A program made the position numbers and the translations under genes. The notes beneath the pieces are model-generated. The model saw only the letters and a list, made by a program, of their open reading frames with translations, was not told where the DNA came from and did not search any database. DNA of 64,000 nucleotides from Comamonas sp. (GTDB taxonomy: Bacteria; Pseudomonadota; Gammaproteobacteria; Burkholderiales; Burkholderiaceae_C): positions 1-64,000 of the forward strand of contig JADMKK010000004.1 of NCBI GenBank assembly GCA_015478895.1, written 5' to 3'. Shown here piece after piece: positions 2,172 through 60,049 of this stretch; position 1 is the first letter of the stretch, and each line of letters begins with the position of its first letter.

Positions 2172-2255
2172 AGATAGCTGTTAGCCCTTGTGTTTTAAGC
2201 ATTTGAATGCCAAATGCTTACCAAATCGTTGCATTGCAAGGGCTAATAGCTACGA
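2172..2255 (+). repeat. Dispersed bipartite palindrome, long form, copy 1
   Basis: Outer arms TAGCTGTTAGCCCTTG (2175-2190) and CAAGGGCTAATAGCTA (2237-2252) pair at 15 of 16 positions. Inside them is a perfect 9-bp inverted repeat, AAGCATTTG (2197-2205) and CAAATGCTT (2211-2219), with a 5-nt loop. It fills most of the gap between the GshA-like gene and thiL. Confidence 0.85.
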
Positions 2256-2267
2256 TTTTTGCTGTGG

Positions 2268-3392
2268 CTACACCGCCTCCCCGCGAAAGCGTCGGGAGGC
2301 CTGGCGTGTTACCTCGCCCAATAATTGTTCACGCGACTGGCGCTCGCGCAGCCAACGAGCATCATTGTGACTGGCAACGACATCATTGCGCAGCATTTGC
2401 AGCGCTGGTGCTGCGCCATGCCGTGCGGCGTGTTCGGCAATTTGGTCGATGGTTTGCAAAATATGCTCCGCCAACGGCATGTGCGCGCCGCTGCCGGGCT
2501 CGACATACACCGCATCCAAACCAAAGCGGCAGGCCTGAAAGCGGTTGTAGGTGTAGACCAGGTAATCGTCTTCCTGCGGTGTGAAGGGCTGGGTGTCCAG
2601 AAACCACGCAGCCAGCGCCTGCACGTAGCCTGCCAGCGCGGCGGCGCGTTCAATGGTCAGGGGGGTGTCGAACACACGGATTTCAATCGTGCCAAATTCT
2701 GGCTTGGGGCGAATGTCCCAGTAGAAATCCTTCATGCTCTTGACCACGCCGGTGGCGGTCATTTTTTCAAAATAGCGCTCAAACTCGGCCCAGGTCAGCA
2801 CGCAGGGCGCGCGCCCAGACAGGGGGAAGGCAAACACCGAATTGAGCCGCGCCGAGTCAAACGCCGTGTCCTGCCCCTGCACGTAAGGGCTGGAGGCCGA
2901 CAGCGCAATGAAATGCGGAATGTAGCGGCTCATGCGGTGCAGCATCAGCAGGGCCGCGTCCGCATCCGGGCAGCCAATGTGGACGTGCTGGCCAAAGATG
3001 GTGAATTGCTTGCTCAGGTAGCCATACAGCGAAGACAGCTCATGAAAGCGTGCCTTGTCGTAAATGCGCTGCTGGTGCCACTGCTGAAATGGGTGGGTGC
3101 CACCGCCCACCACGGCGATATTGAGCTTGTCGGCGCTTTTCACCAAAGCGTCGCGTGTCGGGGTCAGCTGGCTCAACACCTCGGCGGCGCTGTGGCAAAT
3201 GCCGGTGGAGATTTCGATCATGCTGCTCGTCATCTCCGGCACCACGCTGCCGGGCAGCTGGTGTTTGCTCATCAAACGCAGCATGTCGGTGGCGTAGGGG
3301 GCCAGGTCGTAGTCGTGGGTGTTGACCAGTTGCAGCTCCAGCTCGACACCCAAGGTCAGGGGCTCAGACTTTTGGAAAGCTTCCAAGGGCAT
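2268..3392 (-). CDS. YbdK-type carboxylate-amine ligase (GshA-like gamma-glutamylcysteine ligase)
   Basis: The 374-aa protein belongs to the GCS2/YbdK family, ATP-dependent ligases that join glutamate to an amine such as cysteine. Near the N terminus is the [10 protein letters not shown] strand with the metal-binding glutamates, followed by [13 protein letters not shown] and, mid-protein, FGQHVHIGC; these are the usual active-site blocks. The start at 3392 has a GGAG 8 nt upstream and lies only 2 nt after the stop codon of the antiporter gene, so the two are probably translated together. Whether it makes gamma-glutamylcysteine or another gamma-glutamyl product cannot be read from sequence. 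Confidence 0.85.
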
Positions 3393-3394
3393 GT

Positions 3395-4654
3395 TCACGC
3401 TCCGGTTTTGAGGTTGCTGGCCGGGGCCACTTTGGTCGGTGCGCTTTCGCGCGCGCGGCGCAAGGCCACGGTGGCCAGTGCGGCACCTGCCAGTTCCAGC
3501 AACAAAATGGCGGGTAAAGCAATGCCTGCAATGGATTGGCCCAACTCGGGCGAGGCTTGCGCAAATTGCGAAGTAATCAATAGCGCCACTGCCGACATGG
3601 GGGCCATGGCACAGGCCACCCACACCGCCTGCTGCCAACTGGCACCTGAGCCCATATTGCCCAGGCCCACACCCACTGCTTTGGCAATCAAGCGCGCCAC
3701 CACCAGTGCCAGCACGGCCACCGCAACCGCACCACTCCAGGGCGCTTGTGCTGCCACGGTTGAAACCATTACAAACATCAGCATGGTGAGCAGCGAAGAC
3801 GCCGTTCCCAGCTGGCGCGGCCAGGCCCAAGGTCGCTGGTGCAACTGCTTGAGCAAAATGCCCCCCAGCAGCGCAGCCAAGGGGGCAGAGCCACCCAGGT
3901 GCGCAGCCACTACAGTGGCTGCAGCAATCAAGGCCAGCATCAAAATGGACGTGTTTTCACTGCTGGGGCTCATCACCTGTAGTGCCAGGCGCATGGCAAA
4001 GCACAGCAAGGCGCCCACCAATACAGACACCCCCAGCACCACCAGCACGGGCGTAATGTCTTGCCATAGCGAGGCAGCGGGCCTTGCAAAGATTTCGGCT
4101 TTGGCACTGCCCAGGGTCAGGGCATACAGCGTAGAGAGCGTGGCCAGCACCATGGCGCGGTCGGTGACTGGGCCCACCGCGCGGGTGTCGTTAATCACGC
4201 GGGCCAGAACCACGGGGGAGGCGGCCATGGCGATCAACGCCAGCGGCGTGGCAATGATGGCTTCAATCCCGCACCAGCGCAGCACGTAAAACACCGCCAG
4301 ATAGGTGAGCGCTGCTTCAGCCAAACTTTGCACCAGCACCATCGGATTGTGGCGGAACCAGCGCAGCGTAATACGTGCACCGCACTCAAACAACACCACC
4401 GAGACTCCCAACTCCAGCAGGAACAACGCAGGCCCTTGCAGGGGCCACATGGCACCGCCAAAGCCAAAAAATCCGGCCAGGGTGCCGATCAGCGCATAGC
4501 CCACTATCTTTGGCATTTGCAGGTGGCGCTGAAAAAGGTAGCCCACCAGGGAAGCGAGAGCCAGTAGCAGCGACCACTGCAACGTGTCAAATCCTGCGGA
4601 GGGTTTGAGCCATTGTTCCCAAAACTGGGAAATGTGGAGGGAGATTTCGTTCAT
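3395..4654 (-). CDS. Kef-like cation:proton antiporter (CPA2), membrane domain only
   Basis: Polytopic inner-membrane protein of 419 aa with about 12 hydrophobic segments and CPA2 features: [19 protein letters not shown] near the N terminus and [16 protein letters not shown] in the helix 3-4 region. Full-length Kef proteins are about 600 aa and carry a C-terminal RCK/TrkA-N nucleotide-binding domain; this one stops after the membrane domain with a short basic tail. The start at 4654 (MNEISL) has AAGGA about 9 nt upstream. Kef systems are classically gated by glutathione, and the next gene in the operon is a GshA-like ligase, so a thiol-linked role is a reasonable guess. Confidence 0.8.
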
Positions 4655-4742
4655 GCCTTCATCCTTGCTCAGAGCTCCTAAATGTTGATGCGCTCGCAAT
4701 AATCTACGAATGCCAGCGCATGCGATCAAGAGGACAAAACCG

Positions 4743-6707
4743 TCAAGGCTTGAAGAAACTCAGCGGATTGCTGCGCAAGCGGTGGCGAATGGCGGCGTAG
4801 ATGCGTGAACGCTCTACGCCAGTGACGTTTTGGGCGCGCAGCGCCATGCGAAACGCCAAGTAAAAGCTCACCATAACATTGATGGCACCGTTGAACGGCA
4901 GCATGGCCACGGCCCACCAGAAAGCGCTGCTGTGAATGATGTCAAGACCGAAAGTGGCCCCGGCAACGCCCAGTTGGCCGGAGGAGAGTGTGACATGGCG
5001 CACTTCCAGACCCAACCCAAAAAACCCTGCAACAGCGGGAGCCAGCCCCAGCATCAAACCCAAAGAAATATTGGCGGCAAAGCCCGAGATATGGTTGCGC
5101 CAGAAGTGGCTCCAGCGCTTGGCCCGGTGGTTGCCCAAGGCGCGGGTGATGGTCGGGTTGTAGCGCATGGCTGAATCCAGGCGGTTCAGCACAAACCAGT
5201 TTTCTGCCCAGCCTGCTATCAGGCTGCTGATAAACAGCAGCACGCCGGTGAAAGCGGCAAATAGCAGCGAAGGCCCCAGCAAGCTCAGGGAGGTGAGCAC
5301 TTGTGTGGCGTGCGCTTCGTCCAGCGGCGGAGCGCCAAAAGCGTACTGGAACAGCATGGCCAGCCCCAGGGCGGCAGGAAACACCACCAGCACATTGCCC
5401 AAGATAGCGGCCACTTGGGTTCGGGTGAGGTTGGCCACCTCGTCCACAAAGTTTTCAATTGCTCCGGGCTCATTGATGTTCTTGAGCTTGGAGGCCATGG
5501 CCGGTGCCGTCATGGCGGGCTGCTTGGTGGCCACGGTGAAGTGCAGCAGCTGGATCAGCACAAAGCTGATGGCGTAGTTCACCCCCGCCCAGAAGCCACC
5601 CCAAAACGCCGAAAATGCCAGCGCTGCCAGCCCGAACTTGAGCATGGTGGTGACTGACATCAGCAAGCCACCACCCGCAGCGCGGCGCAGCATCTGCATG
5701 TATTCCGAGCTGTTGCGCGTGATGTAGTGCTCGCCCGTCTCTGCGCTGCGTTCCGTAACTTTTGCTGCCAGCAGCGAGGAGTTGGTGGAGAACAGCGAGC
5801 GCAGGCTGCGCCGCTCACGGCCCACGCTGACAAAGCCTGCCAGCAGGCGCACAGCGTCTTGTTCCGGCCGCGAACTGGTCAAGCAATCGAGCAGTTGCCG
5901 AATGCGCACGATGCGGGTGCGCAATTGGCGTACCCGAAACACCAGGCCCACGGAGATGCCGCCCTCGCCAAAGCGGTTGTAGACCGTGCCAATAGCGGCG
6001 CGGCAGGCATCAAGACGCTCACGCAGGCGGCGTTCGGCTTCCAGCAGCCGGTCAGGGGTGCGCAGGCCGTGCAGCACTTCAATGCGCAGGCTTTCCACAT
6101 CGCGAATCAGGTCGTGAAAAGGCCGTGCATCGCGTGCTTCCTCACTCATACGCAGGCGCAACTCTGGCGAGAACCCGTTGGAGAGAATCTGGCCCGCGCA
6201 GTACGTAATGGCATTGAGCAGCGCGTGCTGCCAAAAGCTGGTGCCCTGGCTCTCTTGCGGATTGAGCAAGGCAGACAGCCGTTGCAACAAGGCTTCGGGC
6301 ATGGCAGTGAGCCAGCGCGCACCAAACTCCGTTGGCATGGCAATCGAAAACAGCTCGGAGGCATCGATCGTCTCCGGGGTGCCAGGCAGCAGCTTGCCGC
6401 GAATGCGCTCGGATACCTCGGTGATCATGGCGGTGCGCGGGGCAAAGCCAAAGTCGGCCAGCAGCGTGGTGATGTCCACGGTGTCAATGAATGCCAGCCA
6501 CCACGCCTGCAAGCGTTGCTGTAATTGCGGATCACCTTCTACCGTCGTAATCAACGACTCGGCGCGCCCGATTGCCACTTCCACCGAAGGTTGGGCTGCG
6601 CGGATCCACTCCAGTACATGAATGAGCCAAAGGTGGCGCTCCGCCAAGTCGGCACGGGGGTCTAGTTCCGCCAGCAGGCGGGGCAAATCAGTGGCAGTAC
6701 GGCGCAT
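4743..6707 (-). CDS. gcr: SpecificRecomb (Gcr) family membrane protein
   Basis: A 654-aa member of the SpecificRecomb family, which databases call site-specific recombinase. The first half is soluble and helical with many Arg-rich helices (about residues 1-340). The second half has several hydrophobic segments beginning near the MSVTTMLKFGLAALAFSAF region, typical of an integral membrane protein. I see no tyrosine- or serine-recombinase catalytic signature, so the recombinase label is doubtful. Its ATG follows the apaG stop codon with no intervening base, so expression is probably coupled to apaG. Found as a single copy in most Burkholderiales; function unknown. Confidence 0.8.
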   Translation of the reverse strand: MRRTATDLPRLLAELDPRADLAERHLWLIHVLEWIRAAQPSVEVAIGRAESLITTVEGDPQLQQRLQAWWLAFIDTVDITTLLADFGFAPRTAMITEVSERIRGKLLPGTPETIDASELFSIAMPTEFGARWLTAMPEALLQRLSALLNPQESQGTSFWQHALLNAITYCAGQILSNGFSPELRLRMSEEARDARPFHDLIRDVESLRIEVLHGLRTPDRLLEAERRLRERLDACRAAIGTVYNRFGEGGISVGLVFRVRQLRTRIVRIRQLLDCLTSSRPEQDAVRLLAGFVSVGRERRSLRSLFSTNSSLLAAKVTERSAETGEHYITRNSSEYMQMLRRAAGGGLLMSVTTMLKFGLAALAFSAFWGGFWAGVNYAISFVLIQLLHFTVATKQPAMTAPAMASKLKNINEPGAIENFVDEVANLTRTQVAAILGNVLVVFPAALGLAMLFQYAFGAPPLDEAHATQVLTSLSLLGPSLLFAAFTGVLLFISSLIAGWAENWFVLNRLDSAMRYNPTITRALGNHRAKRWSHFWRNHISGFAANISLGLMLGLAPAVAGFFGLGLEVRHVTLSSGQLGVAGATFGLDIIHSSAFWWAVAMLPFNGAINVMVSFYLAFRMALRAQNVTGVERSRIYAAIRHRLRSNPLSFFKP

Positions 6708-7124: not shown

Positions 7125-7155
7125 AGCGCAATAGTAACTGCGACAATTGCCCACC

Positions 7156-7839: not shown

Positions 7840-7857
7840 ATAGCGCCCCAGCAACTG

Positions 7858-7887
7858 GGCCTGCCATAGCAGGCCTTTTTTATTTTT
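7858..7887 (+). terminator. Rho-independent terminator after rpe
   Basis: GGCCTGC (7858-7864), loop CATA, GCAGGCC (7869-7875), a perfect 7-bp stem, followed by TTTTTTATTTTT (7876-7887). Confidence 0.93.
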
Positions 7888-7898
7888 GAGTATTTTAT

Positions 7899-7945
7899 GC
7901 CTCAAGCCCTTGTGTAGCAACGGCTTATAGCTATAAAAGTAGGTG
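7899..7945 (-). repeat. Dispersed palindrome, short form, copy 2
   Basis: AGCCCTT (7905-7911), a 7-nt loop, then AACGGCT (7919-7925), with flanks GCCTCA and TATAGCTATAAAA. Read on the minus strand it matches the short-form pattern TAGCTA...AGCCNTT-7 nt-AAGGGCT...GAGGC. It sits between the rpe terminator and gph. Confidence 0.7.
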
Positions 7946-7950
7946 ATTGA

Positions 7951-8673: not shown

Positions 8674-8691
8674 GTGGCCGTTTTTATTACC

Positions 8692-8728
8692 AATCCTCCA
8701 GCCTTGGCTCCCACAAGGCTTGAGGATT
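8692..8728. terminator. Bidirectional terminator-like hairpin between gph and the MCP gene
   Basis: AATCCTCCAGCCTTG (8692-8706) pairs with CAAGGCTTGAGGATT (8714-8728) with one mismatch and a 7-nt loop. It lies between convergent genes; T-rich stretches flank it on both sides but are short. Confidence 0.75.
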
Positions 8729-12374: not shown

Positions 12375-12721
12375 TGCGAGCGATTGAGAAAGTCAAAGAC
12401 TGCCAGAGCATGCAAGAAGTGCGCGCCGGTGTGAATGCGCTGGACGACATCCTGGTGCCTTTGCTGGTGGAGCGCAGCGGCTATATGACGCAGGCTGCTA
12501 AGGTCAAGAACAACGAAAACCTGGTGCGCGATGAAGCGCGCATTCAAACCATCATCGATCGCGTGCGTCCTATGGCCGAAGCGCAGGGCGGCAACCCCGA
12601 CCTGATGGAGCGCCTGTACCGCGCCATGATGGAGTGCTACATCGACTATGAGCACCAAGAGCTGGCGCGCATGCGCGCTGAGGGTTTGCAGCCTCAGGAG
12701 CGTCAAGGAACACAGGTATGA
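12371..12721 (+). CDS. Chorismate mutase (AroQ class)
   Basis: Small all-helical chorismate mutase of 116 aa that rearranges chorismate to prephenate for phenylalanine and tyrosine. Family residues are visible in the long first helix ([19 protein letters not shown], about 19-37), then AAKVKN and the C-terminal [13 protein letters not shown]. The ATG overlaps the trpE stop (ATGA), and its own stop overlaps the trpG start, so it is embedded between the two anthranilate synthase subunits. A second ATG one codon later is possible. Both branch-point enzymes acting on chorismate are thus on one message. In Burkholderiales such a gene at this place is known; its regulatory logic here is inference. 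Confidence 0.87.
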
Positions 12722-13299
12722 AGCTCTTGATGATCGACAACTACGACAGCTTTACCTACAACATCGTCCAGTACTTTGGCGAGTTGGGGGCGGAGGTGAC
12801 TGTGGTGCGCAACGACGAAATCACGCTGGATGCCGTCATCGCTTTGGTGGCCGAAAAAGGCATCGAGCGCATCGTTATTTCGCCTGGCCCCAGCTCCCCG
12901 AAAGAAGCCGGCATTTCGGTGCCTGCGATTGAACATTTCGCGGGCAAATTGCCGGTGCTGGGCGTGTGTCTAGGCCACCAGAGTATTGGCGCAGCGTTTG
13001 GTGGCGACATCGTCCGCGCAGGCCAGCAAATGCATGGCAAAACCAGCGTGATTAGCACCGATCAAAAGGGCGTGTTTGCCGACTTGCCGCAGCAGTTCAC
13101 GGTGAACCGCTACCACTCGCTGGTGATCGACAAGAACACGCTGCCGGATTGCCTGGCCATCACCGCCACCAGCGAAGATGGCGAAATTCAGGGCGTGCGC
13201 CACAAAACGCTGGCGGTGGAGGGGGTGCAGTTCCACCCCGAAAGCATCTTGACCGAGCATGGCCACGCCATGCTCAAGAACTTTCTGGAGCAGAAATAA
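12718..13299 (+). CDS. trpG: Anthranilate synthase component II (glutamine amidotransferase)
   Basis: Class I glutamine amidotransferase subunit that hydrolyses glutamine and passes ammonia to TrpE. In the 193-aa protein the catalytic triad is visible: Cys84 in GVCLGHQS, His173 and Glu175 in QFHPES. The N terminus [15 protein letters not shown] is diagnostic for TrpG/PabA. PabA-like dual use for folate synthesis cannot be excluded. The ATG overlaps the stop codon of the chorismate mutase gene. It is followed by a terminator and a dispersed repeat rather than directly by trpD. Confidence 0.96.
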
Positions 13300-13301
13300 G
13301 C

Positions 13302-13341
13302 CCGCAGCCGCATGGTCTTATGCCCTGCGGTTTTTGTTTTT
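13302..13341 (+). terminator. Rho-independent terminator after trpG
   Basis: CCGCAG (13302-13307) pairs with CTGCGG (13325-13330); an inner GCAT/ATGC helix extends the stem, and TTTTTGTTTTT follows (13331-13341). It divides trpE-aroQ-trpG from trpD-trpC. Confidence 0.85.
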
Positions 13342-13425
13342 AAGAGCAGCCTGCCCTTGTCATACCTTGTTTTCAAAGCAATAACTATCTGAAAGCAAGC
13401 AAATGACAGGGCAAGCAGCTTTGAT
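13342..13425 (+). repeat. Dispersed bipartite palindrome, long form, copy 3
   Basis: Outer arms GCAGCCTGCCCTTGTCAT (13346-13363) and ATGACAGGGCAAGCAGC (13403-13419) pair with one gap and two mismatches. Inner arms CTTGTTTTCA (13366-13375) and TGAAAGCAAG (13390-13399) pair at 9 of 10. It lies inside the trp region between trpG and trpD. Its right half closely matches that of copy 4. Confidence 0.85.
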
Positions 13426-13449
13426 TGCGATAGCAAAGGAATAGACCCC

Positions 13450-14484
13450 ATGAGCACTTTTACCGCCCAGGAAGCGCTGCAGCGCACCATTGAACACCGC
13501 GAAATCTTTCACGATGAAATGCTGGACCTGATGCGCCAGATCATGCGCGGTGAGCTATCGCCCGTGATGATGGCGGCCATCCTCACCGGCCTTCGTGTGA
13601 AGAAGGAAACCATTGGCGAAATCTCCGCCGCCGCCGAGGTGATGCGCGAGTTTTCCAACCAGGTGCATGTGCACGACAAAGCCCATCTGGTGGACATCGT
13701 CGGCACTGGCGGCGATGGTGCCAATACCTTCAATATCTCGACTTGCGCCACGTTTGTGATTGCGGCGGCGGGCGGCAAGGTCAGCAAGCACGGCGGGCGC
13801 AGCGTCAGCAGCAAATCGGGCAGCGCCGACGCGATGGAAGCGCTGGGCGTGAACATCAACTTGCAACCCTCACAAATCGCCGATTGCATCCGCGATGTAG
13901 GCATTGGCTTTATGTTCGCCCCCAACCATCACCCGGCCATGAAGAACGTGGCGCCGGTGCGCAAAGAGCTGGGCGTGCGCACCATCTTTAACATCCTGGG
14001 CCCGCTGACCAACCCGGCCGGTGCGCCCAATATTTTGATGGGTGTGTTCCACGAAGACCTGGTCGGCATCCAGGTGCGCGCACTGCAGCGTCTGGGCGCC
14101 GAGCACGCGCTGGTGGTCTATGGCCGCGACGGCCTCGATGAAATCAGTCTGGGCGCGGGCACGCTGGTGGGTGAGCTCAAAGACGGCGTGGTGCGCGAGT
14201 ACGAAATCCACCCCGAAGACTTTGGCCTGCGCATGGCGGGCACACGCGGCCTGAAGGTGGAAACGCCCGAGGAATCCAAGGCCATGCTGATGGGCGTGCT
14301 GCAGGGCGAGTCAGGCCCGGCGCGCGACATCGTCTGCCTGAACGCAGGCGCGGCGCTGTACGCGGCCAATGTGGCGTCTTCGATTGCGGATGGCTTGCAG
14401 CGTGCACAGGCTGCGATTAACAGCGGCGCAGCGTTGAAAAAACTGCATGAACTGGTGGCTTACAGCGGCAAGCAGGCAAGCTGA
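13450..14484 (+). CDS. trpD: Anthranilate phosphoribosyltransferase
   Basis: Transfers the phosphoribosyl group of PRPP to anthranilate. The 344-aa protein carries the PRPP-binding loop GTGGDG (residues 85-90) followed by NTFNIST, then [21 protein letters not shown], the usual substrate-binding blocks. AAGGAA lies about 11 nt upstream of the ATG. The gene is separated from trpG by a terminator and a palindromic repeat, so it either relies on read-through or has its own promoter; I found no convincing promoter. It is followed by trpC after 68 bp. Confidence 0.96.
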
Positions 14485-15661: not shown

Positions 15662-15685
15662 AGTGCCAGATCATGCTATGGTTTA

Positions 15686-15767
15686 AAGAGTTACAAGCCT
15701 TTGTAAATGCACGTTTTTAGTATGAAAGTCATCTGAAATGCAAGCAACATCAGGGCAGCCAGCTACG
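15686..15767 (+). repeat. Dispersed bipartite palindrome, degenerate long form, copy 4
   Basis: The right half (15731-15764), with ATCTGAAATGCAAGCAA followed by CAGGGCAGCCAGCT, aligns closely with the right half of copy 3 (13387-13420). The left half (AAGAGTTACAAGCCTTTGT) is a decayed version of the outer arm, so pairing is weak. It overlaps the upstream ATG of ung at 15738. Confidence 0.65.
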
Positions 15768-15773
15768 CAATTG

Positions 15774-23067: not shown

Positions 23068-23964
23068 ATGACCACCTCGACCCCCAGCAGTGCTGCCACT
23101 GCCGCCAAGCGCTCCAAGCTTTCTCTGTATCTGGACTTGATCCGCTGGAACCGCCCTGCGGGCTGGCTGGTGCTGGTGTGGCCAACTTTGGCTGCGCTGT
23201 GGATCGCGGCGGAAGGCTTTCCAGGCTGGCACTTGTTGCTGGTATTTGTGGTGGGCACCGTGCTGATGCGCAGCGCTGGCTGCACCATCAATGACATTGC
23301 CGACCGTGATTTTGACAAGCACGTCAAACGCACGACACAGCGCCCCATCACCAGCGGGCAAGTCAGTGTCAAAGAAGCCGCCTTGGTGGGCTTGGTGCTG
23401 ACACTGGCAGCTTTTGCGCTGGTGCTCACCACACGCTGGGAGGCGGTGGCCTGGTCGGTGCCCGCCGTGTTGTTCACCATCCTTTATCCGTTCACCAAAC
23501 GCTTTTTCGCCATGCCGCAAGCCTTTTTGGGTATTGCATTCAACTTTGGCATCTTGATTGCTTTTGCAGCGGTAACGGGCGAGGTCAGCACCACCGCATG
23601 GAGCCTGTGGCTGGCCAACATGTTCTTGGTGCTGGCGTATGACACCGAATACGCCATGGTGGATCGCGATGACGATCTGAAGATCGGCATGAAGACCTCG
23701 GCCATCACGCTGGGGCGTCTGGATGTGGCCGGCATCATGGGCTTTTTTGCCCTGTGCCTGGTGCTCACGGTCTGCGCGGTGATGCCGTACGACCTGGGCT
23801 GGCCGTTCTGGCTGGGCATGGCGGCGGCGGTGGCGCAAGTGATCTGGCACTTTGTATTAATCAAAGACCGGGCTCGCGAGGGTTGCTTTACCGCGTTTAG
23901 CAAGAGCCATTACATCGGCATGACGATGTTTGCAGGCATCGCGCTGGGCTTTGCCTTGCGTTGA
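23068..23964 (+). CDS. ubiA: 4-hydroxybenzoate octaprenyltransferase
   Basis: Inner-membrane prenyltransferase that attaches the polyprenyl chain to 4-hydroxybenzoate in ubiquinone synthesis. The 298-aa protein has nine or so hydrophobic helices, the first Asp-rich motif NDIADRDFD at residues 75-83 and the second around [13 protein letters not shown] at 191-203. The ATG at 23068 has no Shine-Dalgarno sequence but GACAAT ends 6 nt before it, so the transcript may begin on the start codon. No ubiC is adjacent. A strong terminator follows. Confidence 0.96.
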
Positions 23965-23977
23965 TAGATCACGCCAT

Positions 23978-24016
23978 AAAAAATCCCCGCAGCGGTGACG
24001 CTGGCGGGGATTTTTT
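23978..24016. terminator. Bidirectional terminator between ubiA and proC
   Basis: AAAAAATCCCCGC (23978-23990) and GCGGGGATTTTTT (24004-24016) are exact reverse complements, giving a 7-bp GC stem with A/T tails on both sides. It serves both convergent genes. Confidence 0.95.
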
Positions 24017-24035
24017 CATGGGCGCTGGCAGTGGC

Positions 24036-24860
24036 TTACTTGCCGAACTCCGCCGCCAGCTCCTTGGCGCGGGTTTCGGCCTTGCGCAGCGCCGCAATGA
24101 AGTGCTGGGGCAACTCGGTCTGCTGCATGTGCGTGATGGCGGCATACGTAGTGCCGCCCTTGCTGGTCACGCGCTCACGCAATACGGCTGCGGGTTCGTC
24201 CGAACGCGCGGCCAATTCGGACGCGCCCTGGAAGGTGGCAATTGCCAGCTGGTACGACTGCTCGGTGGTCAGACCCATGCCCACACCCGCCTGGGTCATG
24301 GCTTCGAGGAACAAAAACACATAGGCCGGGCCAGAGCCTGACAGGGCCGTCACGGCGTCGAGTTTGTCTTCGGCATCCACCCAGACCAACTGGCCGGTGG
24401 TGCCAATGACGCGCTCTATCAGGGCTTGGCCTTCGGCATTGACTTCAGCACGGGCAAACAGGCCGGTCATGCCTTTACCGACCAGCGCCGGGGTATTGGG
24501 CATGGCGCGCACGATGCGACCCGTGCCCAGCCACTGGCTGATGCTGTCGGTGGTAATGCCCGCGGCCACGCTCAAATGCAGCGCTTGGGTGGTAAAGGCC
24601 ACAGCTGCAGCAGCGGCGTCTTTGAACGTCTGGGGCTTGACGGCCCAGACCACCAGGTCAGCAGCAGTCAGCGCATCGGTAGCAGCGGGCAGGGCGGTGA
24701 TGCCAAACTTGGCCTGCAGCGCCTGGCGCGCAGCTTCAAAGGGTTCAACCACGGTGATGTGTGCAGCAGGCAAACCGTTGCCAATCAGCCCGCCGATGAT
24801 GGCGCTTGCCATATTGCCGCCGCCGATGAAGGCAATGCGGGTAGAAGGTATCTGGCTCAT
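24036..24860 (-). CDS. proC: Pyrroline-5-carboxylate reductase
   Basis: Reduces pyrroline-5-carboxylate to proline with NAD(P)H. The 274-aa protein has the Rossmann start IAFIGGGNMASAIIGGL (about residues 8-24), the AVKPQ motif near 95, and the C-terminal dimer and substrate blocks SGSGPAYVFLFLEAM and SKGGTTYAAI. The ATG at 24860 is used. A dispersed repeat separates it from glpK upstream. Confidence 0.96.
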   Translation of the reverse strand: MSQIPSTRIAFIGGGNMASAIIGGLIGNGLPAAHITVVEPFEAARQALQAKFGITALPAATDALTAADLVVWAVKPQTFKDAAAAAVAFTTQALHLSVAAGITTDSISQWLGTGRIVRAMPNTPALVGKGMTGLFARAEVNAEGQALIERVIGTTGQLVWVDAEDKLDAVTALSGSGPAYVFLFLEAMTQAGVGMGLTTEQSYQLAIATFQGASELAARSDEPAAVLRERVTSKGGTTYAAITHMQQTELPQHFIAALRKAETRAKELAAEFGK

Positions 24861-24879: not shown

Positions 24880-24973
24880 AAAAATGAGAGCTAGTAGCCC
24901 TTATAAAGCTTTGCATTCGAGAGGGAAACTATTCGAAAGCTAGGTTTCACCGGGGCAAGATGCTCTCTTTTTG
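24880..24973 (+). repeat. Dispersed bipartite palindrome, long form, copy 5
   Basis: Outer arms AAAAATGAGAGCTAGTAGCCC (left) and GGGGCAAGATGCTCTCTTTTT (right) pair imperfectly. The inner arms are AGCTTT...CGA and TCGAAAGCT with a 5-nt bulge. It lies between glpK and proC; the T-run next to glpK could aid termination. Confidence 0.7.
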
Positions 24974-29149: not shown

Positions 29150-29195
29150 AAGGCCGGCAACTTCAAAAAAAGAAGCTGCTGGCCTTCTGTTTTAT
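29150..29195 (+). terminator. Rho-independent terminator after glpD
   Basis: AAGGCCGGCAACTTC (29150-29164), loop of seven A, GAAGCTGCTGGCCTT (29172-29186), 13 of 15 pairs, then CTGTTTTATT. Confidence 0.85.
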
Positions 29196-29320
29196 TGGTT
29201 TTGGCGATTAAACCTGTTTGAAAATAAGGCCATGGCTGGGCATGCAGCTATGCTTTTGGATGATTAAAGTTGCTCGCTTTTCATTCCCTACGCATGTGGT
29301 GGTTTTCGCTCGCTAAACAG

Positions 29321-38366: not shown

Positions 38367-38443
<77 letters not shown>

Positions 38444-38686: not shown

Positions 38687-38779
38687 AAAATGAGAGCTGG
38701 TTGCCCTTGTCTATCCTTGTTTTCAATATGTTTTGGCACGCAAAGCAAGGATTGGCTAGGGCAAGCAGCTTCACTTTTT
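38687..38779 (+). repeat. Dispersed bipartite palindrome, long form, copy 6
   Basis: The best-preserved copy. AGCTGGTTGCCCTTG with CTATCCTTGTTTT (38695-38723) faces AAAGCAAGGATTGG with CTAGGGCAAGCAGCT (38742-38770); 21 of the 25 outer positions pair and the inner ATCCTTG/CAAGGAT pair is perfect. It lies between the tRNA terminator and the Hsp70-like gene. Confidence 0.9.
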
Positions 38780-40068: not shown

Positions 40069-40112
40069 ATGTAGCTACCAGCCCTTGTCCCATAAGGGCT
40101 AGAGCCTTTTTT
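40069..40112 (+). repeat. Dispersed palindrome, short form, copy 7 (terminator-like)
   Basis: AGCCCTT (40080-40086), 7-nt loop GTCCCAT, AAGGGCT (40094-40100), flanked by GTAGCTACC and AGAGCCTTTTTTT. It lies between the convergent Hsp70-like gene and rsmI, and its T-run suggests it doubles as a terminator. Confidence 0.85.
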
Positions 40113-47701: not shown

Positions 47702-47795
47702 AAAAAAAGGAGCTAGAAGCCCCCGTAAAAGCTTGTTTTGGCAATGTATTGCATTGCAAAGCAAGCTTCTTTCAGGGCAACTAGCTCCTTTTTTT
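47702..47795. repeat. Dispersed bipartite palindrome, long form, copy 8 (terminator-like)
   Basis: A single imperfect hairpin of 94 bp. The ends AAAAAAAGGAGCTAG and CTAGCTCCTTTTTTT are exact complements; across 34-nt arms (47702-47735 and 47762-47795) 27 positions pair. The inner part GCTTGTTTTGGCAATG and CATTGCAAAGCAAGC pairs almost perfectly around loop TATTG. It lies between convergent FKBP and TonB receptor genes, with T-runs on both strands. Confidence 0.92.
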
Positions 47796-52902: not shown

Positions 52903-52990
52903 AATGAAGCAGCTTGCCGCCTATCTATAAGCACTTGAGCAACTAAACACCTTGAAAGTGTTTGGTTGCTTGGGCATGCCGCTCTCTTAT
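52903..52990 (+). repeat. Dispersed bipartite palindrome, long form, copy 9
   Basis: Inner arms AGCAACTAAACAC (52938-52950) and GTGTTTGGTTGCT (52958-52970) pair at 12 of 13. Outer arms GAAGCAGCTTGCC and GGGCATGCCGCTCTC are degenerate. It lies between the binding-protein gene and the second TonB receptor. Confidence 0.75.
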
Positions 52991-55067: not shown

Positions 55068-55094
55068 TGGCGCTGAGCGCATGGGGCGGATGTT

Positions 55095-56387
55095 TTGAGC
55101 AGAGTTGACGGCTACACCACCGATATCACTTTCCCGGCGTTTTTTTACAAAGAAATGCAGCCGGTCTGGATCAGCCATCTCTTGCGCTTTGAAGGCTTTC
55201 AAGCGCCAGACCTGGCAGGCCATTTCAGGCTGTGTGAGCTGGGCTGTGGCGTGGGCGTCAACCTGCTGGTGGCCGCGGCATGCCACCCTGCGGCGCAGTT
55301 TATCGGTGTCGATTTCAACCCCCAGCACCTGGAGATTGCGCGCACATTGGCGCAAGCCGCTGGCCTTCACAACCTGGAATTTGTGCAGGCTGATTTTGCG
55401 CAGTTTGCAGCCAGCCAGCCGCAGGCGTTTGACTTCATCAACACCCATGGCGTGTGGTCATGGATTGCGCCCGGGCACCAGCAGGCCATGCTGGAGGTGG
55501 TGAGGCAATCACTCAAAGTGGGTGGCGTTTTCTATCTGCATTACATGTGCCACCCCGGCTCGACCGATTTGCAAACCCTGCAGCATTTTTTGAATGTGTT
55601 TGCACCCCATGTGCCGGGGTCTTCGTCGCAGCAGGTGCAGATGGGCCTCAAGCTGTTGCAGCAACTGGCGCAGCGGGGCATGTTTGCCGATCAACCCAAC
55701 GTGCTGCGGCATCTGGAGCAGCTGCAGCGCAAAGATGCTACGCACCTGGCCCACGAGTTTTTGACGGACCACTGGCAGCCCCAGCATGGCGTAGATGTGC
55801 ACCGCCAAGTGGGCAGCACCGGCTTGCAGTACGTGTGCAGTGCCGATGTCTTCAACAACCTGGATGTATCGCTGTCCATTCCTGGCCGTCTGCAAAACGT
55901 GGTGGCGCAGACCAAAATTGCCGCTGTGGCCGAGACGCTCAAGGACATGGCCCGCAACAGCCACCAGCGTATGGATCTGTTCCAGCGTGCGCCGCAAGTT
56001 TGCTCGGTGCAGGAGCAACTGCAAGACATTCAAAAGATGGGGTTTCAACTGCTGCCCAACGCGCCAAAGAGCGGGGCGATTGACTTCACCACGCCCATGG
56101 GCAATGTGCAGGGCCCTGAAGCACTGTGCAGTCCTTTATTGGGCGCTTTGCACCAGGGGCCGCAAACCTTTGCGGCATTGATGCAGTTGCCCCCTTTCCA
56201 TGACAACCCGGCGCTGCTGCTGCAGAGCCTGCAGCTCATGATGATGCAAAGCCTGGTGCACCCTGTGAACCCTGTGGCGTCTCCAAGCTTGCCTGCGGTG
56301 CCGTTGCTCCATGCCGCGCTGCAGCAGCAAGCGTGGGGCATTACGGTCATGCCTGAGATGGGTACGGCTACACTGCGCCGCCCTTAA
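55095..56387 (+). CDS. Class I SAM-dependent methyltransferase with regulatory domain
   Basis: 430-aa two-domain protein. Residues 1-160 form a class I methyltransferase: motif I LCELGCGVG (46-54), acidic Asp73 in GVDFNPQ, then NTHGVWSW. The rest matches the methyltransferase-regulatory type (PF10119-like), found also in rickettsial lysine methyltransferases that modify outer-membrane protein OmpB. The only start is TTG at 55095 with GGGGCGGA about 6 nt upstream. It follows receptor 2 after 27 bp, probably on one transcript. The substrate is unknown; receptor lysines, a siderophore or an unrelated molecule are all possible. Confidence 0.75.
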   Translation: MSRVDGYTTDITFPAFFYKEMQPVWISHLLRFEGFQAPDLAGHFRLCELGCGVGVNLLVAAACHPAAQFIGVDFNPQHLEIARTLAQAAGLHNLEFVQADFAQFAASQPQAFDFINTHGVWSWIAPGHQQAMLEVVRQSLKVGGVFYLHYMCHPGSTDLQTLQHFLNVFAPHVPGSSSQQVQMGLKLLQQLAQRGMFADQPNVLRHLEQLQRKDATHLAHEFLTDHWQPQHGVDVHRQVGSTGLQYVCSADVFNNLDVSLSIPGRLQNVVAQTKIAAVAETLKDMARNSHQRMDLFQRAPQVCSVQEQLQDIQKMGFQLLPNAPKSGAIDFTTPMGNVQGPEALCSPLLGALHQGPQTFAALMQLPPFHDNPALLLQSLQLMMMQSLVHPVNPVASPSLPAVPLLHAALQQQAWGITVMPEMGTATLRRP

Positions 56388-56420
56388 AGCGGCAATCAAC
56401 GCGGGGGAGGCGGCAGATTT

Positions 56421-56849
56421 TCAGTTGCGGTCGCCTTCGGCAGCCTCGGTTGCATCTTTGAGCAAATGCTCGCCGATCTGCTTCCATGCCTTGCTGGCAT
56501 CGTGCTCTCCCGCAAAGTGGTGGCAACTGGCGGCGGTCATGGCGATGCGGCCGTTTTCGGGGGCCAGGTCAAACGCACGTTCACACTGGGCGGCAGCGTT
56601 GCTCCACATGACCAGCGCGTTGGGGGAGTCTTCCTTTTGCAGGGCATAGGCCTCGGCCATCCATGCCTGGGCCAGGCGGAAAGCGGCTTCGCAATGATCC
56701 GGTTCTGCAGTGTGCGCGCGGTAGAAGTGCTTGCCGGCCTCTTGCCACAGCGCACGGGCGCGCTGGAAATCGGAGGGGGCGACCTGCTGGGCCTCGGTGA
56801 CCAAGGCGTTGCCTGATTGCAGGAGTTCTTCAAAGCTCAGTTCAGTCAT
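56421..56849 (-). CDS. Hypothetical helical-repeat (TPR-like) protein
   Basis: 142-aa acidic protein made of amphipathic helices: ARALWQEAGKHFYRAHTAEP and AAAQCERAFDLAPENGRIAM resemble TPR units, so a protein-binding role is likely. I chose ATG 56849 (MTELSFEELLQ). It has no signal peptide and is probably cytoplasmic. I cannot name a family. It lies next to an ankyrin-type gene on the same strand, 82 bp apart. Confidence 0.65.
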   Translation of the reverse strand: MTELSFEELLQSGNALVTEAQQVAPSDFQRARALWQEAGKHFYRAHTAEPDHCEAAFRLAQAWMAEAYALQKEDSPNALVMWSNAAAQCERAFDLAPENGRIAMTAASCHHFAGEHDASKAWKQIGEHLLKDATEAAEGDRN

Positions 56850-56931
56850 GGTGCGACAAGGCAGTGTGTGAAACCGGCATTGTGGCGCGATGCGTGAAAG
56901 CACGTGTGCTGCAAGTCTTGTCAAGGCAGTG

Positions 56932-57282
56932 TTAGACCGATAGCCAGCGTTCCCAAAAGCGTCGGTGTGGGGAGGGCTGTTCTTGTGCGCCGAAATCTTG
57001 CAAAAGGCTTTGCAGCGCCACATCCCCGTGCTGCCGGGCCGCTTGCAAGGGCGTAAGCTGGCCCAGTTCTGCAGGCAGGTTGGGATCGGCCCCATGTGCA
57101 AGCAGTGCGCGGGCCACCTCGGTGTGGCCCTGCATGCAACTGATCACCAGCGCCGACACCATGGCCTCGGGGTGCTGGTAGTCCACATCCACCCCTTCAC
57201 TGAGGTGATACAGCACGCAGTGAAGATCACCGCGCTCTGCGGCGTAGTACATGTCTTTCCAATCGCCCCCTGCACTGGCCAT
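56932..57282 (-). CDS. Ankyrin-repeat protein
   Basis: 116-aa protein with about three ankyrin units: DMYYAAERGDLHCVLYHLSE, then ALVISCMQGHTEVARALLAHGADPN and TPLQAARQHGDVALQSLLQDF. AAGGAG lies 7 nt upstream of the ATG at 57282. Such small ankyrin proteins act as protein-binding modules; the partner is unknown. It may be co-transcribed with the TPR-like gene. Confidence 0.8.
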   Translation of the reverse strand: MASAGGDWKDMYYAAERGDLHCVLYHLSEGVDVDYQHPEAMVSALVISCMQGHTEVARALLAHGADPNLPAELGQLTPLQAARQHGDVALQSLLQDFGAQEQPSPHRRFWERWLSV

Positions 57283-57394
57283 GGCTTGCTCCTTGAGAGA
57301 AGCCGCCAACGTAATCGCTAATGGCCGATGTGGCTACAGGGTGAGCACCATGAAAAATGCTTTTCACTGTGCCCAACGCCGCTGTTTGCAGGCG

Positions 57395-58879
57395 CTAAAA
57401 GCGTGGCAAATCCGGGTGGCTGATCTGGCCGCCCCGCACCAGCATCTTGCCGTACTCGGCGCAGCGGTTGAGTGTGGGAATGACCTTGCCGGGGTTGAGC
57501 AGGCCCGCCGGATCGAACGCCGCTTTGAGCGCAAACATCTGCAGGTTTTCTTCGGTGGTGAACTGGGTACACATGCTGTTGAGCTTTTCCACGCCCACGC
57601 CGTGTTCGCCCGTCACCGTGCCGCCCATGGCCACGCTGGTTTCCAGAATGTCGGCACCGAACAGTTCGCAGCGGTGCAGCTCGTCCGGGTCATTGGCATC
57701 AAACAGAATCAGCGGGTGCAAGTTGCCGTCGCCCGCATGGAACACGTTGGCGCAGCGCAGCTGGTATTTCTTTTCCATTTCCTGAATCGCCAGCAGGATG
57801 TCCGCCAGACGTTTGCGCGGAATGGTCGAATCCATGCACATGTAGTCGGGGCTGATACGGCCCGATGCCGGGAAGGCGTTCTTGCGGCCACTCCAAAAGC
57901 GCATGCGCTCTTCTTCACTGTTGCTCACGGTGATGGCTGTGGCACCGGCTGCGCGCAGCACTTCGCTCATGCGGCCAATTTCTTCTTCCACTTCTTCGGG
58001 TGTGCCGTCAGATTCGCACAAAAGAATGGCTTCTGCGGTCAGGTCGTAGCCCGCCTTCACAAAGTCTTCGACGGCGGCGGTCATGGGCTTGTCCATCATC
58101 TCCAGTCCGGCAGGAATGATGCCCGCAGCAATCACGGCGGCCACAGCATCGCCCGCTTTGCGCACGTCGTCAAAGCTGGCCATGATGCAGCGTGCCAGCT
58201 GGGGTTTGGGGATGAGTTTGACGGTCACTTCCGTGGTGACGGCCAGCATGCCTTCGCTGCCAATCAACGCGGCCAGCAGATCGTAGCCGGGCGCGTCCAG
58301 CGCATCGGAACCAAATTCCATCGGTTCGCCTTCGATGCTGAAGCCTTTGACCTTGAGGATGTTGTGCACCGTCAGCCCGTATTTCAGGCAGTGCACGCCG
58401 CCGGAGTTCTCGGCCACATTGCCGCCAATGGTGCAGGCAATCTGGCTGCTGGGGTCGGGCGCGTAGTACAGGCCGTAGGGCGCAGCCGCATCGCTGATGG
58501 CGAGGTTGCGCACGCCGCACTGCACCACGGCCGTGCGGCTGTAGGCATCAACGTTGAGGATCTGGTTGAACTTGGCCAGCGACAGCGTCACCCCCATCGC
58601 ATGCGGCATGGCGCCGCCCGACAAACCGGTGCCCGCACCACGCGCCACCACCGGCACTTTGTGGATGTGGCAGGCCTTGAGCACGGCTTGCACCTGTTCA
58701 TAAGTTTCAGGCAAGCACACCACCAGCGGGCGCTGGCGATAGGCGGTCAGGCCGTCGCACTCATAGGGCGTGGTGTCTTCGCTGTGCCACAGCAGGGCGT
58801 GTGCGGGCACATGCTGGGACAGGGCTTGCACCACCTCGGCTTGGCGGGTAGCGCGTTCAGAAAGGCTGGCAGTCGTCAT
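57395..58879 (-). CDS. glcD: FAD-binding oxidase, glycolate oxidase GlcD/D-lactate dehydrogenase type
   Basis: 494-aa FAD-linked oxidoreductase of the vanillyl-alcohol-oxidase fold: FAD-binding VPVVARGAGTGLSGG (about 76-90), GGNVAENSGGVHCLKYG, and the C-terminal cap with NVFHAGDGNLHPLILFD and TGEHGVGVEK. Substrate is a D-2-hydroxy acid such as glycolate or D-lactate. GlcE and GlcF subunits are not adjacent, so either it acts alone or its partners are elsewhere. TACAGT ends 8 nt before the ATG and no Shine-Dalgarno sequence is seen. Confidence 0.88.
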   Translation of the reverse strand: MTTASLSERATRQAEVVQALSQHVPAHALLWHSEDTTPYECDGLTAYRQRPLVVCLPETYEQVQAVLKACHIHKVPVVARGAGTGLSGGAMPHAMGVTLSLAKFNQILNVDAYSRTAVVQCGVRNLAISDAAAPYGLYYAPDPSSQIACTIGGNVAENSGGVHCLKYGLTVHNILKVKGFSIEGEPMEFGSDALDAPGYDLLAALIGSEGMLAVTTEVTVKLIPKPQLARCIMASFDDVRKAGDAVAAVIAAGIIPAGLEMMDKPMTAAVEDFVKAGYDLTAEAILLCESDGTPEEVEEEIGRMSEVLRAAGATAITVSNSEEERMRFWSGRKNAFPASGRISPDYMCMDSTIPRKRLADILLAIQEMEKKYQLRCANVFHAGDGNLHPLILFDANDPDELHRCELFGADILETSVAMGGTVTGEHGVGVEKLNSMCTQFTTEENLQMFALKAAFDPAGLLNPGKVIPTLNRCAEYGKMLVRGGQISHPDLPRF

Positions 58880-58975
58880 AGCCAATGACTGTAGGGCAAG
58901 CCTTGGCGCAACGCTGTGATTTTTTTGGCAAGCCTGCGTGAAAGTGCCGCGTTTGGGAGAGGAAGATATCTATAA

Positions 58976-59017
58976 AGATAGCTGCACGCCCTTGTGCAAT
59001 AAGGGCTAGAAGCTGAT
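58976..59017 (+). repeat. Dispersed palindrome, short form, copy 10
   Basis: GCCCTT (58988-58993), 7-nt loop GTGCAAT, AAGGGC (59001-59006), flanked by GATAGCTGCAC and TAGAAGC. The same 7-nt loop length and flanks as copy 7. It lies between glcD and the lysR gene. Confidence 0.85.
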
Positions 59018-59022
59018 TTGGC

Positions 59023-59943
59023 TTAAATCGTCTTGGCCAGCCATTCAGCAAACGCCTGGCACTCCCAGCGGTCCATGGTGCCGGTGCGCCAGCACAGGTA
59101 GTGCGCGTTCGGGCTGGGCACCTCCAAGTCAAACAGGCGCACCAGCGTGCCATTGTCCAGCCACGGTGCGCCCAGCTTCAGGCGCACCGGGGCCACGCCC
59201 AAGCCGGCAGCGGCGGCATCGCACAACAGACCCACATCGTTGAACTGCGAGCCTTCGGTGGGCTCCGCCCAGTCCAGCCCTGCGGCCTGGAACCACGGGC
59301 GCCACGACTCCAGCGGGCTGCGCAGCAGTGGCAGCTCTTGCAGGTCTTCGGGTTTTTCGATGGGGCCGTGCAGGCGCAAAAAGGCGGGTGAAACCACGGG
59401 CGTGTACACATCGCGGGCAATCTCGCGGTGCTCGACATCGGCGTAGTGGCCCGCGCCGTAGCGCACCATCAAATCAGCGTCTTCAGCCACCACGTCCAGC
59501 AGCGGAATCGCCACTTGCAGCGTCAGATCAATCTCGGGGTGGGCCTCGGTGAACTGTGCCAGGCGCGGGATCAGCATGCAGCGCGCAAACGTGGGCGTAA
59601 CAGCAATTTTCAGGCGCACGCGGCCAGTGGCAACGGGGTGGTTGGGAAAGCACTGCAGCGCACCCAGGCCGTCACGCACTTGCTGCAGGTAATTCTGGCC
59701 GTCGGTGGTGAGGGAGAAATCGGTGCGGCCAAACAGCTGGGTGCCCAAAACTTGCTCCAGCTGGCGCACACGGTGGCTGACGGCGCTGGGCGTCACGCTG
59801 AGCTCCTCGGCCGTGAGCGTCACGCTGCGCAGGCGCGCCAGTGCTTCAAAGGTCAGCAGGCATTGAATCGGCGGTATGCGCCGGGCCGAGCGGCTGTCAA
59901 AAAAACGGGTGGGGCGCTGGCCGTTGTTGCGTGGAGTGGACAT
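59023..59943 (-). CDS. LysR-family regulator (GcvA-like)
   Basis: 306-aa LysR regulator. The winged helix spans about 25-85 (LLTFEALARLRSVTLTAEEL, TPSAVSHRVRQLEQVLG) and a periplasmic-binding-like sensor follows. The pattern PSAVSHRVRQLE is typical of the GcvA subgroup. It runs in the same direction as glcD and lies upstream of it, so it may regulate glcD; the gap contains a repeat and no clear operator was identified. Its inducer is unknown. Confidence 0.88.
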   Translation of the reverse strand: MSTPRNNGQRPTRFFDSRSARRIPPIQCLLTFEALARLRSVTLTAEELSVTPSAVSHRVRQLEQVLGTQLFGRTDFSLTTDGQNYLQQVRDGLGALQCFPNHPVATGRVRLKIAVTPTFARCMLIPRLAQFTEAHPEIDLTLQVAIPLLDVVAEDADLMVRYGAGHYADVEHREIARDVYTPVVSPAFLRLHGPIEKPEDLQELPLLRSPLESWRPWFQAAGLDWAEPTEGSQFNDVGLLCDAAAAGLGVAPVRLKLGAPWLDNGTLVRLFDLEVPSPNAHYLCWRTGTMDRWECQAFAEWLAKTI

Positions 59944-59967
59944 GGCTCAGTGTGGTGCTACAGATTT

Positions 59968-60049
59968 AAAAGCAATAAGCCCTAGTGTTATATAGCTTTT
60001 ACTATCAAAACATAGTGAAAGCAATACAACACGAGGGCCAGGTGCTTTG
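59968..60049 (+). repeat. Dispersed bipartite palindrome, long form, copy 11
   Basis: Inner arms GCTTTTACTAT (59995-60005) and ATAGTGAAAGC (60012-60022), loop CAAAAC, pair at 10 of 11. The outer arms AAAAGCAATAAGCCCTAGTG and CACGAGGGCCAGGTGCTTTG pair in part. It lies between purU and the lysR gene. Confidence 0.75.

Follow-up and report, generated by a model that had tools for sequence, protein, structure and literature searches.

Palindromic intergenic elements of two fixed lengths with lineage-specific cores lie at gene ends in a Comamonas genome

The genome of Comamonas sp. (assembly GCA_015478895.1) carries a family of intergenic palindromic elements in two formats, one of 84 nt and one of about 43 nt. 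Both have an exact length and two-fold symmetry and share a lineage-specific core; the family is biased to the 3' ends of genes and conserved in place. We favor, at a probability of roughly 40%, the explanation that these are fixed-geometry sites kept at gene ends by a trans-acting, sequence-specific factor. The window referred to throughout is the whole stretch of 64,000 nt at the start of contig JADMKK010000004.1.

An initial annotation of the window had described a palindromic intergenic family with a nested long form and a short form at 11 places, and the family proved to be real and larger than that listing (Table 1). Ten of the 11 are clear members and the remaining one, at 7899, is a degenerate member of the short type; one long copy (29170..29253) had been overlooked. 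The window holds 9 long copies and 3 short ones, of which 2 are clear and 1 is degenerate. The exact long pattern occurs at 8 sites in the window, whereas 200 dinucleotide shuffles average 0.03, and the exact short pattern at 2 sites, compared with 0 in 50 shuffles. Genome-wide, the long pattern has 213 exact matches and the short pattern 94. When as many as 3 mismatches are allowed, the short pattern is matched 113 + 126 times on the two strands and its reversed control 0 + 0 times. Neither chance frequency nor a set of ordinary terminators without shared arms, the outcome that the annotation had set against its own claim, was found. At the curated score, Rfam matched none of the element copies in the window, where its sole match was a tRNA. 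All 12 copies lie in gaps between genes, as the annotation had stated, when genes are called with a simple purpose-made gene caller and a weak 153-bp open reading frame overlapping the copy at 47707 is discounted on score. Where the annotation gave a density of about one copy per 6 kb, the count is 12 per 64 kb, and the window and first sample together contain 61 merged places per 464 kb (47 long, 14 short). Densities were taken from this first batch only, because known matches had partly guided the choice of the 20 stretches in the second batch.

Table 1. Element copies in the 64,000-nt window.
Element	Coordinates	Strand	Remarks
Long, 84 nt, core GCC/GGC	2172..2255	+	RNA-fold z -5.85
Degenerate short, arms GCCCTT/AACGGC (5/6 paired), loop 7	7899..7936	+	Identified by eye; no structure signal (z +0.19); listed by neither model R1 nor R2
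Long, between GATase gene (trpG-like) and Glycos_transf_3 gene (trpD-like)	13341..13424	+	Counterpart at same place in L074, L075, L076, and L080
Long, diverged: core GCC kept, AGC changed to AGT	15685..15768	+	No match at colinear place in G090
Long	24885..24968	+
Long	29170..29253	+	G090 element at same place
Long, 3' of tRNA gene (38367-38440), 5' of HSP70-like gene	38691..38774	+	G090 element at same place
Short, 43 nt, arms GCCCTT/AAGGGC, loop 7	40069..40111	+
Long, between convergent genes, flanked by A-run and T-run	47707..47790	+	RNA-fold z -7.73
Long	52904..52987	+
Short, 43 nt, arms GCCCTT/AAGGGC, loop 7	58976..59018	+
Long	59967..60050	+	Absent from G090, where the colinear gap is only 49 bp

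Among 63 raw places found by model R1 in 464 kb, 46 were 84 nt and 12 were 43-44 nt long, and the remaining 5 measured 42, 45, 76, 83, and 85 nt. We scanned 864 kb for the arms GCCCTT/AAGGGC with loops of 3-60 nt. A loop of 7 nt was found 26 times, matching the constant loop that had first been noticed, a loop of 48 nt (equivalent to the long form) was found 5 times, and any other length was found at most once. When outer-to-outer distances of 24-149 were counted in this genome, 76 alone stood out (80 occurrences, where the background averaged 9.1 and the runner-up had 24); in the C. testosteroni-like set, the same distance ranked first but was less distinct (35 versus 30). No further loop or length classes beyond 84 and 43 were seen in this genome. 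What had been described as a nested second palindrome is more aptly seen as two inverted half-sites with conserved sequence and exact spacing, each composed of an A-tract, AGC-n5-GCC, and TTTCAG. Conserved bases within each half account for most of the symmetry, with a modest pairing excess at variable positions. As a matter of arithmetic only, 84 and 43 correspond to about 8 and 4 helical turns, and the 41-bp difference to 3.9 turns.

We analyzed gene context with 83 long copies. From 193 model matches the best 150 were taken, the 94-column ones among them were merged by place, and three copies were added by hand; length variants and weaker matches (e.g., L043:13319, L041:12159, and L031:83) were left out. 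These copies occupy 29 convergent, 50 co-oriented, and 4 divergent gaps, while the available gaps of at least 84 bp number 56, 269, and 81, respectively (P = 2e-10 for elements in convergent versus divergent gaps). In 40 of the 50 co-oriented gaps, the element lies closer to the 3' end of the upstream gene than to the downstream gene. The sample contains 72 long copies with an exact core, of which only 1 falls inside a called gene. Like terminators, the elements follow stop codons and avoid divergent gaps. The placement would suit hairpins at RNA 3' ends that an RNA-binding protein or nuclease recognizes by sequence, either bidirectional terminators or stems protecting mRNA 3' ends, although we regard this reading as doubtful. 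An A-run and a T-run flank the elements, and such a symmetric arrangement around a hairpin would serve either strand. In addition, RNA folds better than shuffled sequence (z below -2) in six of the nine long copies in the window, and at one colinear convergent gap, the place of a G090 element is taken in this genome by an ordinary GC hairpin and T-run, which hints at termination.

Base changes at paired positions give a mixed picture. Double changes from one Watson-Crick pair to another number 33 compared with 14.0 expected, and pairing therefore seems constrained; controls shifted by one base are also in excess (14 versus 6.6 and 18 versus 5.3), and those shifted by two and three bases show no excess. 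The excess of G-T over A-C that would point to RNA is absent, both in the 50 co-oriented copies read in the sense direction (109 versus 103) and over three lineages (145 versus 126, P = 0.27). The tRNA control for this wobble test was small and weak and left its power unproven (20 tRNAs, offset by best pairing: G-T 5, A-C 3). The orientation of the central AAAA/TTTT is accompanied by no clear wobble asymmetry (180 versus 152, P = 0.14) and bears no relation to gene direction among co-oriented copies (26 T, 21 A, 3 mixed). The T-run likewise lacks polarity, lying downstream in the sense direction in 21 of 50 co-oriented copies and on the opposite side in 22, on which basis we rejected a simple one-way intrinsic terminator. 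Moreover, no T-run follows the copy in the trpG-trpD interval in any of the five sequences read (this genome and four loci), and neither a fixed length nor the conserved inner TTTCAG is necessary for termination. A role for the elements in RNA is conceivable, with the odds clearly against it.

The core differs between lineages, and it does so in both formats. The pattern AGCN5GCC-N54-GGCN5GCT, matched 213 times here, has 4-22 matches in each of 40 other genomes of the genus, and its GCG version has 3 matches here and 30-197 in 20 of those 40. The short arms GCCCTT-N7-AAGGGC, with 94 matches here, have 0-3 in the 40 others. Their counterpart GCGCTT-N7-AAGCGC occurs 6 times here, 8-95 times in the same 20 genomes that are rich in the long GCG version, and 0-6 times in the 12 genus genomes with no long-form match; 29 genomes of the genus do have such matches. 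The coupling of long and short forms was not seen in G126 and G147, in which long copies have GTG at 4/5 and 3/5 loci read and GTGCTT short arms number just 3 and 2. Only a single clean genome-wide switch, that involving GCC, was observed.

Copies can persist in place across species while their sequence turns over. G090 has an element in 7 colinear gaps, and 5 of these are also occupied in this genome; all five shared sites have GCC here, a core never found at them in G090. Among three close relatives, elements accumulated 0-0.27 indels per 100 columns, compared with 0.57-0.82 in other intergenic DNA, and their divergence was 0.076 in core columns and 0.212 in variable columns. Gene conversion between copies, of which the mild excess of shared runs described below was the only sign, may account for part of the rapid change. 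To judge from the sequences compared, the dialect pattern points to a shared trans-acting recognizer, probably of DNA.

Core switching resembles the dialects of DNA uptake sequences (DUS), and the elements could by analogy be sites that biased DNA uptake and recombination both spread and maintain, and their lineage dialects would then track a receptor. The sites are indeed individual rather than copy-identical, and they show species dialects of a common motif. In the available text of PMC3630211, Neisseriaceae DUS likewise form species-specific variants of one short motif that change genome-wide; these dialects are tied to a binding protein, and inverted DUS pairs are associated with terminators. 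Yet there are about 300 sites here compared with 1543-3770 DUS copies (PMC3630211, available text), roughly a tenfold difference, and the elements are nearly all intergenic and form an exact 84-bp dyad of fixed geometry, unlike a 10-12-mer. We consider an uptake function highly improbable.

Several features recall a mobile family resembling REPINs or MITEs, by now old and largely immobile, that was copied by a REP-associated transposase (RAYT) or another transposase. As in the REP/REPIN and RAYT systems, to the extent covered by the accessible portions of PMC2817692, PMC3116915, and PMC8049555, the elements are extragenic, high-copy palindromes with a doublet-like architecture and long and short forms, and a single-copy Y1-type protein (Y1_Tnp) is present in most genus genomes (37/41). 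Certain sites are filled in one species and empty in another, and in-register shared runs of at least 14 nt number 135 compared with about 70 in shuffles, a mild excess that includes one 26-nt run. Unlike REP/REPIN as described in the same portions of these sources, the elements have no near-identical copies, no GTAG-type end tag, and no flanking RAYT, and Y1_Tnp is missing from element-rich genomes. No cluster of near-identical copies around a master sequence was found among the 83 sampled long copies, in which the highest pairwise identity was 77% and the median to the nearest neighbor 68%. The hairpin ends consist of an A-run, a variable stretch, and then (G/T)AGC. Direct repeats of 2-9 nt tested at 19 offsets showed no consistent excess that would indicate target duplication, with a few single offsets slightly high. 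The lack of consistent target duplication and of near-identical copies speaks against a MITE.

The initial annotation had proposed a search for a RAYT as mobilizer, and the result spoke against one. This genome encodes a single Y1_Tnp protein, which has lost its HUH motif through absence of the first H (NQLHLL for NHFHLL), and no R2 match adjoins the Y1_Tnp gene in any of five genomes (this genome, G144, G142, G134, and G151). The element-rich genomes G143 and G128 have no Y1_Tnp match, and Y1_Tnp was found in 11 of 12 genus genomes without long elements. Furthermore, old shared sites switched core in place, which a sweep of new copies would not do. A mobile origin of this kind is decidedly unlikely.

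Under the explanation we favor, a putative factor would read the half-sites AGC-n5-GCC or GCG, plus the inner TTTCAG in the long form, in two-fold symmetric sites of 84 bp or about 43 bp. Most likely, it would act as a dimer or tetramer on DNA that is either double-stranded or folded into a hairpin. The sites would be kept in place at gene ends because this factor reads their half-sites. We infer both the existence of the factor and its action on DNA rather than RNA; other models also accommodate the reduced indel rate and the 3' bias. The weakest step, unlikely when taken by itself, is an architectural or boundary role at gene 3' ends, which would limit the spread of supercoiling or read-through. 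Gyrase binding is known for BIME/REP sites. Roles in DNA supercoiling, termination, and mRNA stability have been proposed for them in the part of PMC3733652 available; they share with the elements a position at gene ends and dyad symmetry, but no sequence relation was seen in that part.

We also put forward, as an idea less probable than the explanation itself, that one DNA-binding factor reads about 300 dyad sites and that its specificity, shifting between species, drags all of them along to yield chromosome-boundary dialects. Such a code, equally speculative, would be genome-wide and lie outside restriction and DNA uptake, with 84-bp and 43-bp formats at gene ends. If a trans-acting reader exists, the dialects record, through natural mutation, how hundreds of sites and the protein that reads them changed together, and GCC/GCG species pairs permit a direct swap test. 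If this is true, extragenic palindromic repeats, whose roles are debated, would include a family that fits neither the typical mobile element nor the plain terminator. With the covariance models and core patterns, any Comamonas-like genome can be annotated and classified.

In the sampled genomes, the long form is confined to one genus, probably Comamonas, and we found no description of the 84-nt form in the open-licence literature. None of the comamonad names searched for appears in the main text of PMC3733652 or in PMC12306157, as far as the available text of each extends. The short form is already known as a published, unnamed motif. As the initial annotation had indicated, it occurs in other comamonads, both in an Acidovorax locus and a Rhodoferax locus, with a single copy in each, and as a motif pair, GCTTAT(N)5AAGCG, in Acidovorax ebreus TPSY, of which 107 of 114 copies are intergenic (44 convergent, 4 divergent, 59 co-oriented) according to the accessible part of PMC5217627. 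The short form, as seen in the Acidovorax locus L081, agrees with the reverse complement of this motif, CGCTT-N5-ATAAGC. The accessible part of PMC5217627 covers the short form only and gives no 84-nt form, species-specific cores, or mechanism. A Polaromonas motif in the same table of that part, ATAGCT(N)22CAAAAG, may be related to the elements.

In the window there are nine long elements, all exactly 84 nt in length, along with three short ones, of which two are clear (43 nt) and one is degenerate. We trained a covariance model (R1) on the nine long copies. Across 464 kb, R1 gave 113 strand matches, which merged into 61 places (long, 47; short, 14). No gaps are needed to align the long copies, and 45 of them were used to build a second model, R2 (94 columns, ungapped). 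Fully or nearly fully conserved in 46 copies are AGC (positions 5-7), GCC (13-15, hereafter the core), TTT (31-33), and their mirror images; these copies have A-runs before them, T-runs after them, and AAAA or TTTT at the center. The two halves are similar once copies are turned to be A-rich at the center. At most positions, Watson-Crick pairing equals the prediction from column composition, and it is clearly above composition only at some variable positions, such as 26/59 (0.63 vs. 0.38).

To count sizes independently of a model, we used the pattern AGC-n5-XXX ... XXX'-n5-GCT at outer distances of 24-149. In 864 kb of the host genome, 80 pairs lie at distance 76, corresponding to the 84-nt form (background mean, 9.1; next highest, 24), and 72 of the 80 have the core GCC. 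The same distance yielded 20 pairs in the congener G090 (background, 6.1; next, 18; core GCG in 15) and 35 in a C. testosteroni-like set (background, 8.8; next, 30; core GCG in 20). No peak at distance 76 was seen in 200 kb of G130, a genome without a model match (4 vs. 2.5). The core arms GCCCTT/AAGGGC occur in the host genome 26 times with a loop of 7, five times with a loop of 48, and at most once with any other loop. The elements are a real, abundant, and lineage-specific family of fixed-length dyad sites.

Long copies are found mostly at gene ends. By our own gene calls, the 83 long copies in 864 kb fall into convergent (29), co-oriented (50), and divergent (4) gaps, for comparison, 56, 269, and 81 such gaps, respectively, are 84 bp or longer. 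The upstream stop is the nearer gene end for 40 of the 50 copies in co-oriented gaps. Exact-core copies from G090 and the C. testosteroni-like set comprise 16 co-oriented, 15 convergent, 0 divergent, 1 in-gene, and 3 at edges.

The core differs between lineages in both formats. The GCC long pattern has 213 matches in the host genome and 4-22 in each of the 40 other genomes of the genus (reversed control, 0-5); by eye, the matches listed for several of these genomes resemble GC-rich coding sequence. Conversely, the GCG long pattern has 3 matches in the host genome but reaches 30 (G128) to 197 (G143) in 20 of the 40 others, compared with 3-15 in the 12 genomes without an R2 match (reversed control, 0-19). 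Short arms follow the same division: GCCCTT occurs 94 times in the host genome and 0-3 times elsewhere in the genus, and GCGCTT occurs 6 times in the host, 8-95 times in the 20 GCG genomes, and 0-6 times in the 12 without long elements. Eight R2-matching genomes belong to neither type, three of them with few matches (G122, G124, and G150). Among the loci read in four others, GTG forms the left core in 4/5 (G126) and 3/5 (G147); G120 has GTC (3/6), GTG (2/6), and GCG (1/6), and G121 is mixed. These four genomes may represent further dialects or transitions. Short arms with GTGCTT number 10 in G120 but only 3 in G126 and 2 in G147 (other genomes, 0-4), so the coupling of long and short forms is clear for GCC and GCG but not evident for GTG.

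At five sites shared by the window and G090, the window core is GCC in all five, and the left core in G090 is GCG or differs from it by one base (GCG, GTG, GCG, TCG, and GCG; GCC in 0/5). Old shared sites have therefore switched core, which argues against copying of new elements, since copying would leave old sites unchanged. It is difficult to account for an in-place change of approximately 300 sites, long and short alike, unless a trans-acting reader exists. Most likely, the elements are recognition sites of a putative trans-acting DNA-binding factor at gene ends.

We also considered a Y1_Tnp (RAYT) transposase as a mobilizer of the elements. The host genome has one Y1_Tnp match (29.6 bits; cut-off, 23), next to a gene that we take from its sequence to be gltB. 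The host protein reads NQLHLL where four relatives read the HUH-type NHFHLL, so judging from these residues catalysis may have been lost though the gene stays open. A match is present in 37 of 41 genus genomes, including 11 of the 12 without long elements, and is absent from G128 and G143, both with many elements.

Individual elements persist at shared sites. In the trpG-like/trpD-like interval, the element is alignable over 94 columns in the window and four further loci (L074, L075, L076, and L080); the window copy is 0.40-0.62 identical to the others, and 23-27 of 42 pairs are kept in each. No T-run follows this element in the sequences shown from the host genome and these loci. Seven gaps colinear with the window hold an element in G090, and five of them hold one in the window (identity, 0.40-0.66); of the other two, the window has an ordinary hairpin with a T-run in one and a longer, different interval in the other. 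The 84-nt element and the GC hairpin with T-run appear as if mutually replaceable. At the colinear sites read in G144, G142, and G134, which are 93-94% identical, sequence resembling the element is retained at unchanged length, in some cases below the model threshold. One G151 site has an element without a counterpart in G142.

Positions of individual features in the window and in other loci (L) read
Feature	Location	Observation
trp element	Window 12718-14484	84-nt element between trpG-like and trpD-like genes, inside an apparent trp operon
Hairpin	Window 23961-24039	Convergent gap; ordinary GC hairpin and T-run where G090 has an 84-nt element
Window copies	Window 15685 and 59967	Without counterpart at the colinear G090 location
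Y1_Tnp (RAYT-like) protein	L035:7086-7805	Host genome G000:C8, about 87086-87805
Long-copy pair	L043:9928 and L068:7218	Common 26-nt in-register run (one reversed), far above shuffles
Fast-changing elements	L194-L223 (G144, G142, G134)	Variable positions outpace four-fold sites while length is kept
GTG and GTC cores	L234-L254 (G120, G121, G126, G147)	Dominant or mixed

Between orthologous genes of G144, G142, and G134, identity is 0.77-0.83 in element columns vs. 0.90-0.92 in other intergenic columns, and indels per 100 columns are 0-0.27 vs. 0.57-0.82, with 6-9 element gaps per genome pair. Divergence is 0.212 at variable element positions, above that at four-fold degenerate sites (0.118-0.141), and 0.076 at core positions; the genome pairs are not statistically independent, however, and codon bias may act on the four-fold sites. 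For double Watson-Crick changes, 33 were observed vs. 14.0 expected; controls shifted by one base are also in excess (14 vs. 6.6; 18 vs. 5.3), but those shifted by two or three bases are not. In-register runs of at least 14 nt common to host-genome copies number 135, compared with about 70 in shuffles, and the 26-nt run is possibly a conversion tract. Template switching within the palindrome, short conversion tracts, or selection could cause the fast change.

The main rival to recognition as DNA is that the elements act as RNA, consistent with RNA-fold z scores below -2 in 6 of 9 long copies. However, co-oriented copies read in the sense of the gene show no excess of G-T over A-C mismatches (109 vs. 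103; 35 vs. 32 at well-paired positions; 145 vs. 126 for three lineages together), and T-runs are equally common on their upstream-facing (22/50) and downstream (21/50) sides. Both results favor action at the DNA level. A positive control of 20 tRNA acceptor stems (G-T, 5; A-C, 3) is too small to prove the power of the test; given this and the folds, we retain the RNA reading.

No match to the elements was found in Rfam, and searches of open-licence papers found no description of the 84-nt form or its cores. An A. ebreus motif fits the short form and has the same placement; the paper listing it assigns no function (PMC5217627). The short form is an already known motif, and the long form and coupled core switch appear new. 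Across the order, R2 matched 3 of 120 genomes (35 candidates scored per genome, strict filters): the host, G090, and, with a weak, shortened match, G065. Within the genus, 29 of 41 genomes gave a match. In a set of 80 named loci surrounding the trpD-like gene, an element adjoins the gene in four (three labeled Comamonas and one Comamonadaceae), which is no count of losses because many remaining loci are cut short or distantly related. The short form ranges wider, with one copy in an Acidovorax locus and one in a Rhodoferax locus.
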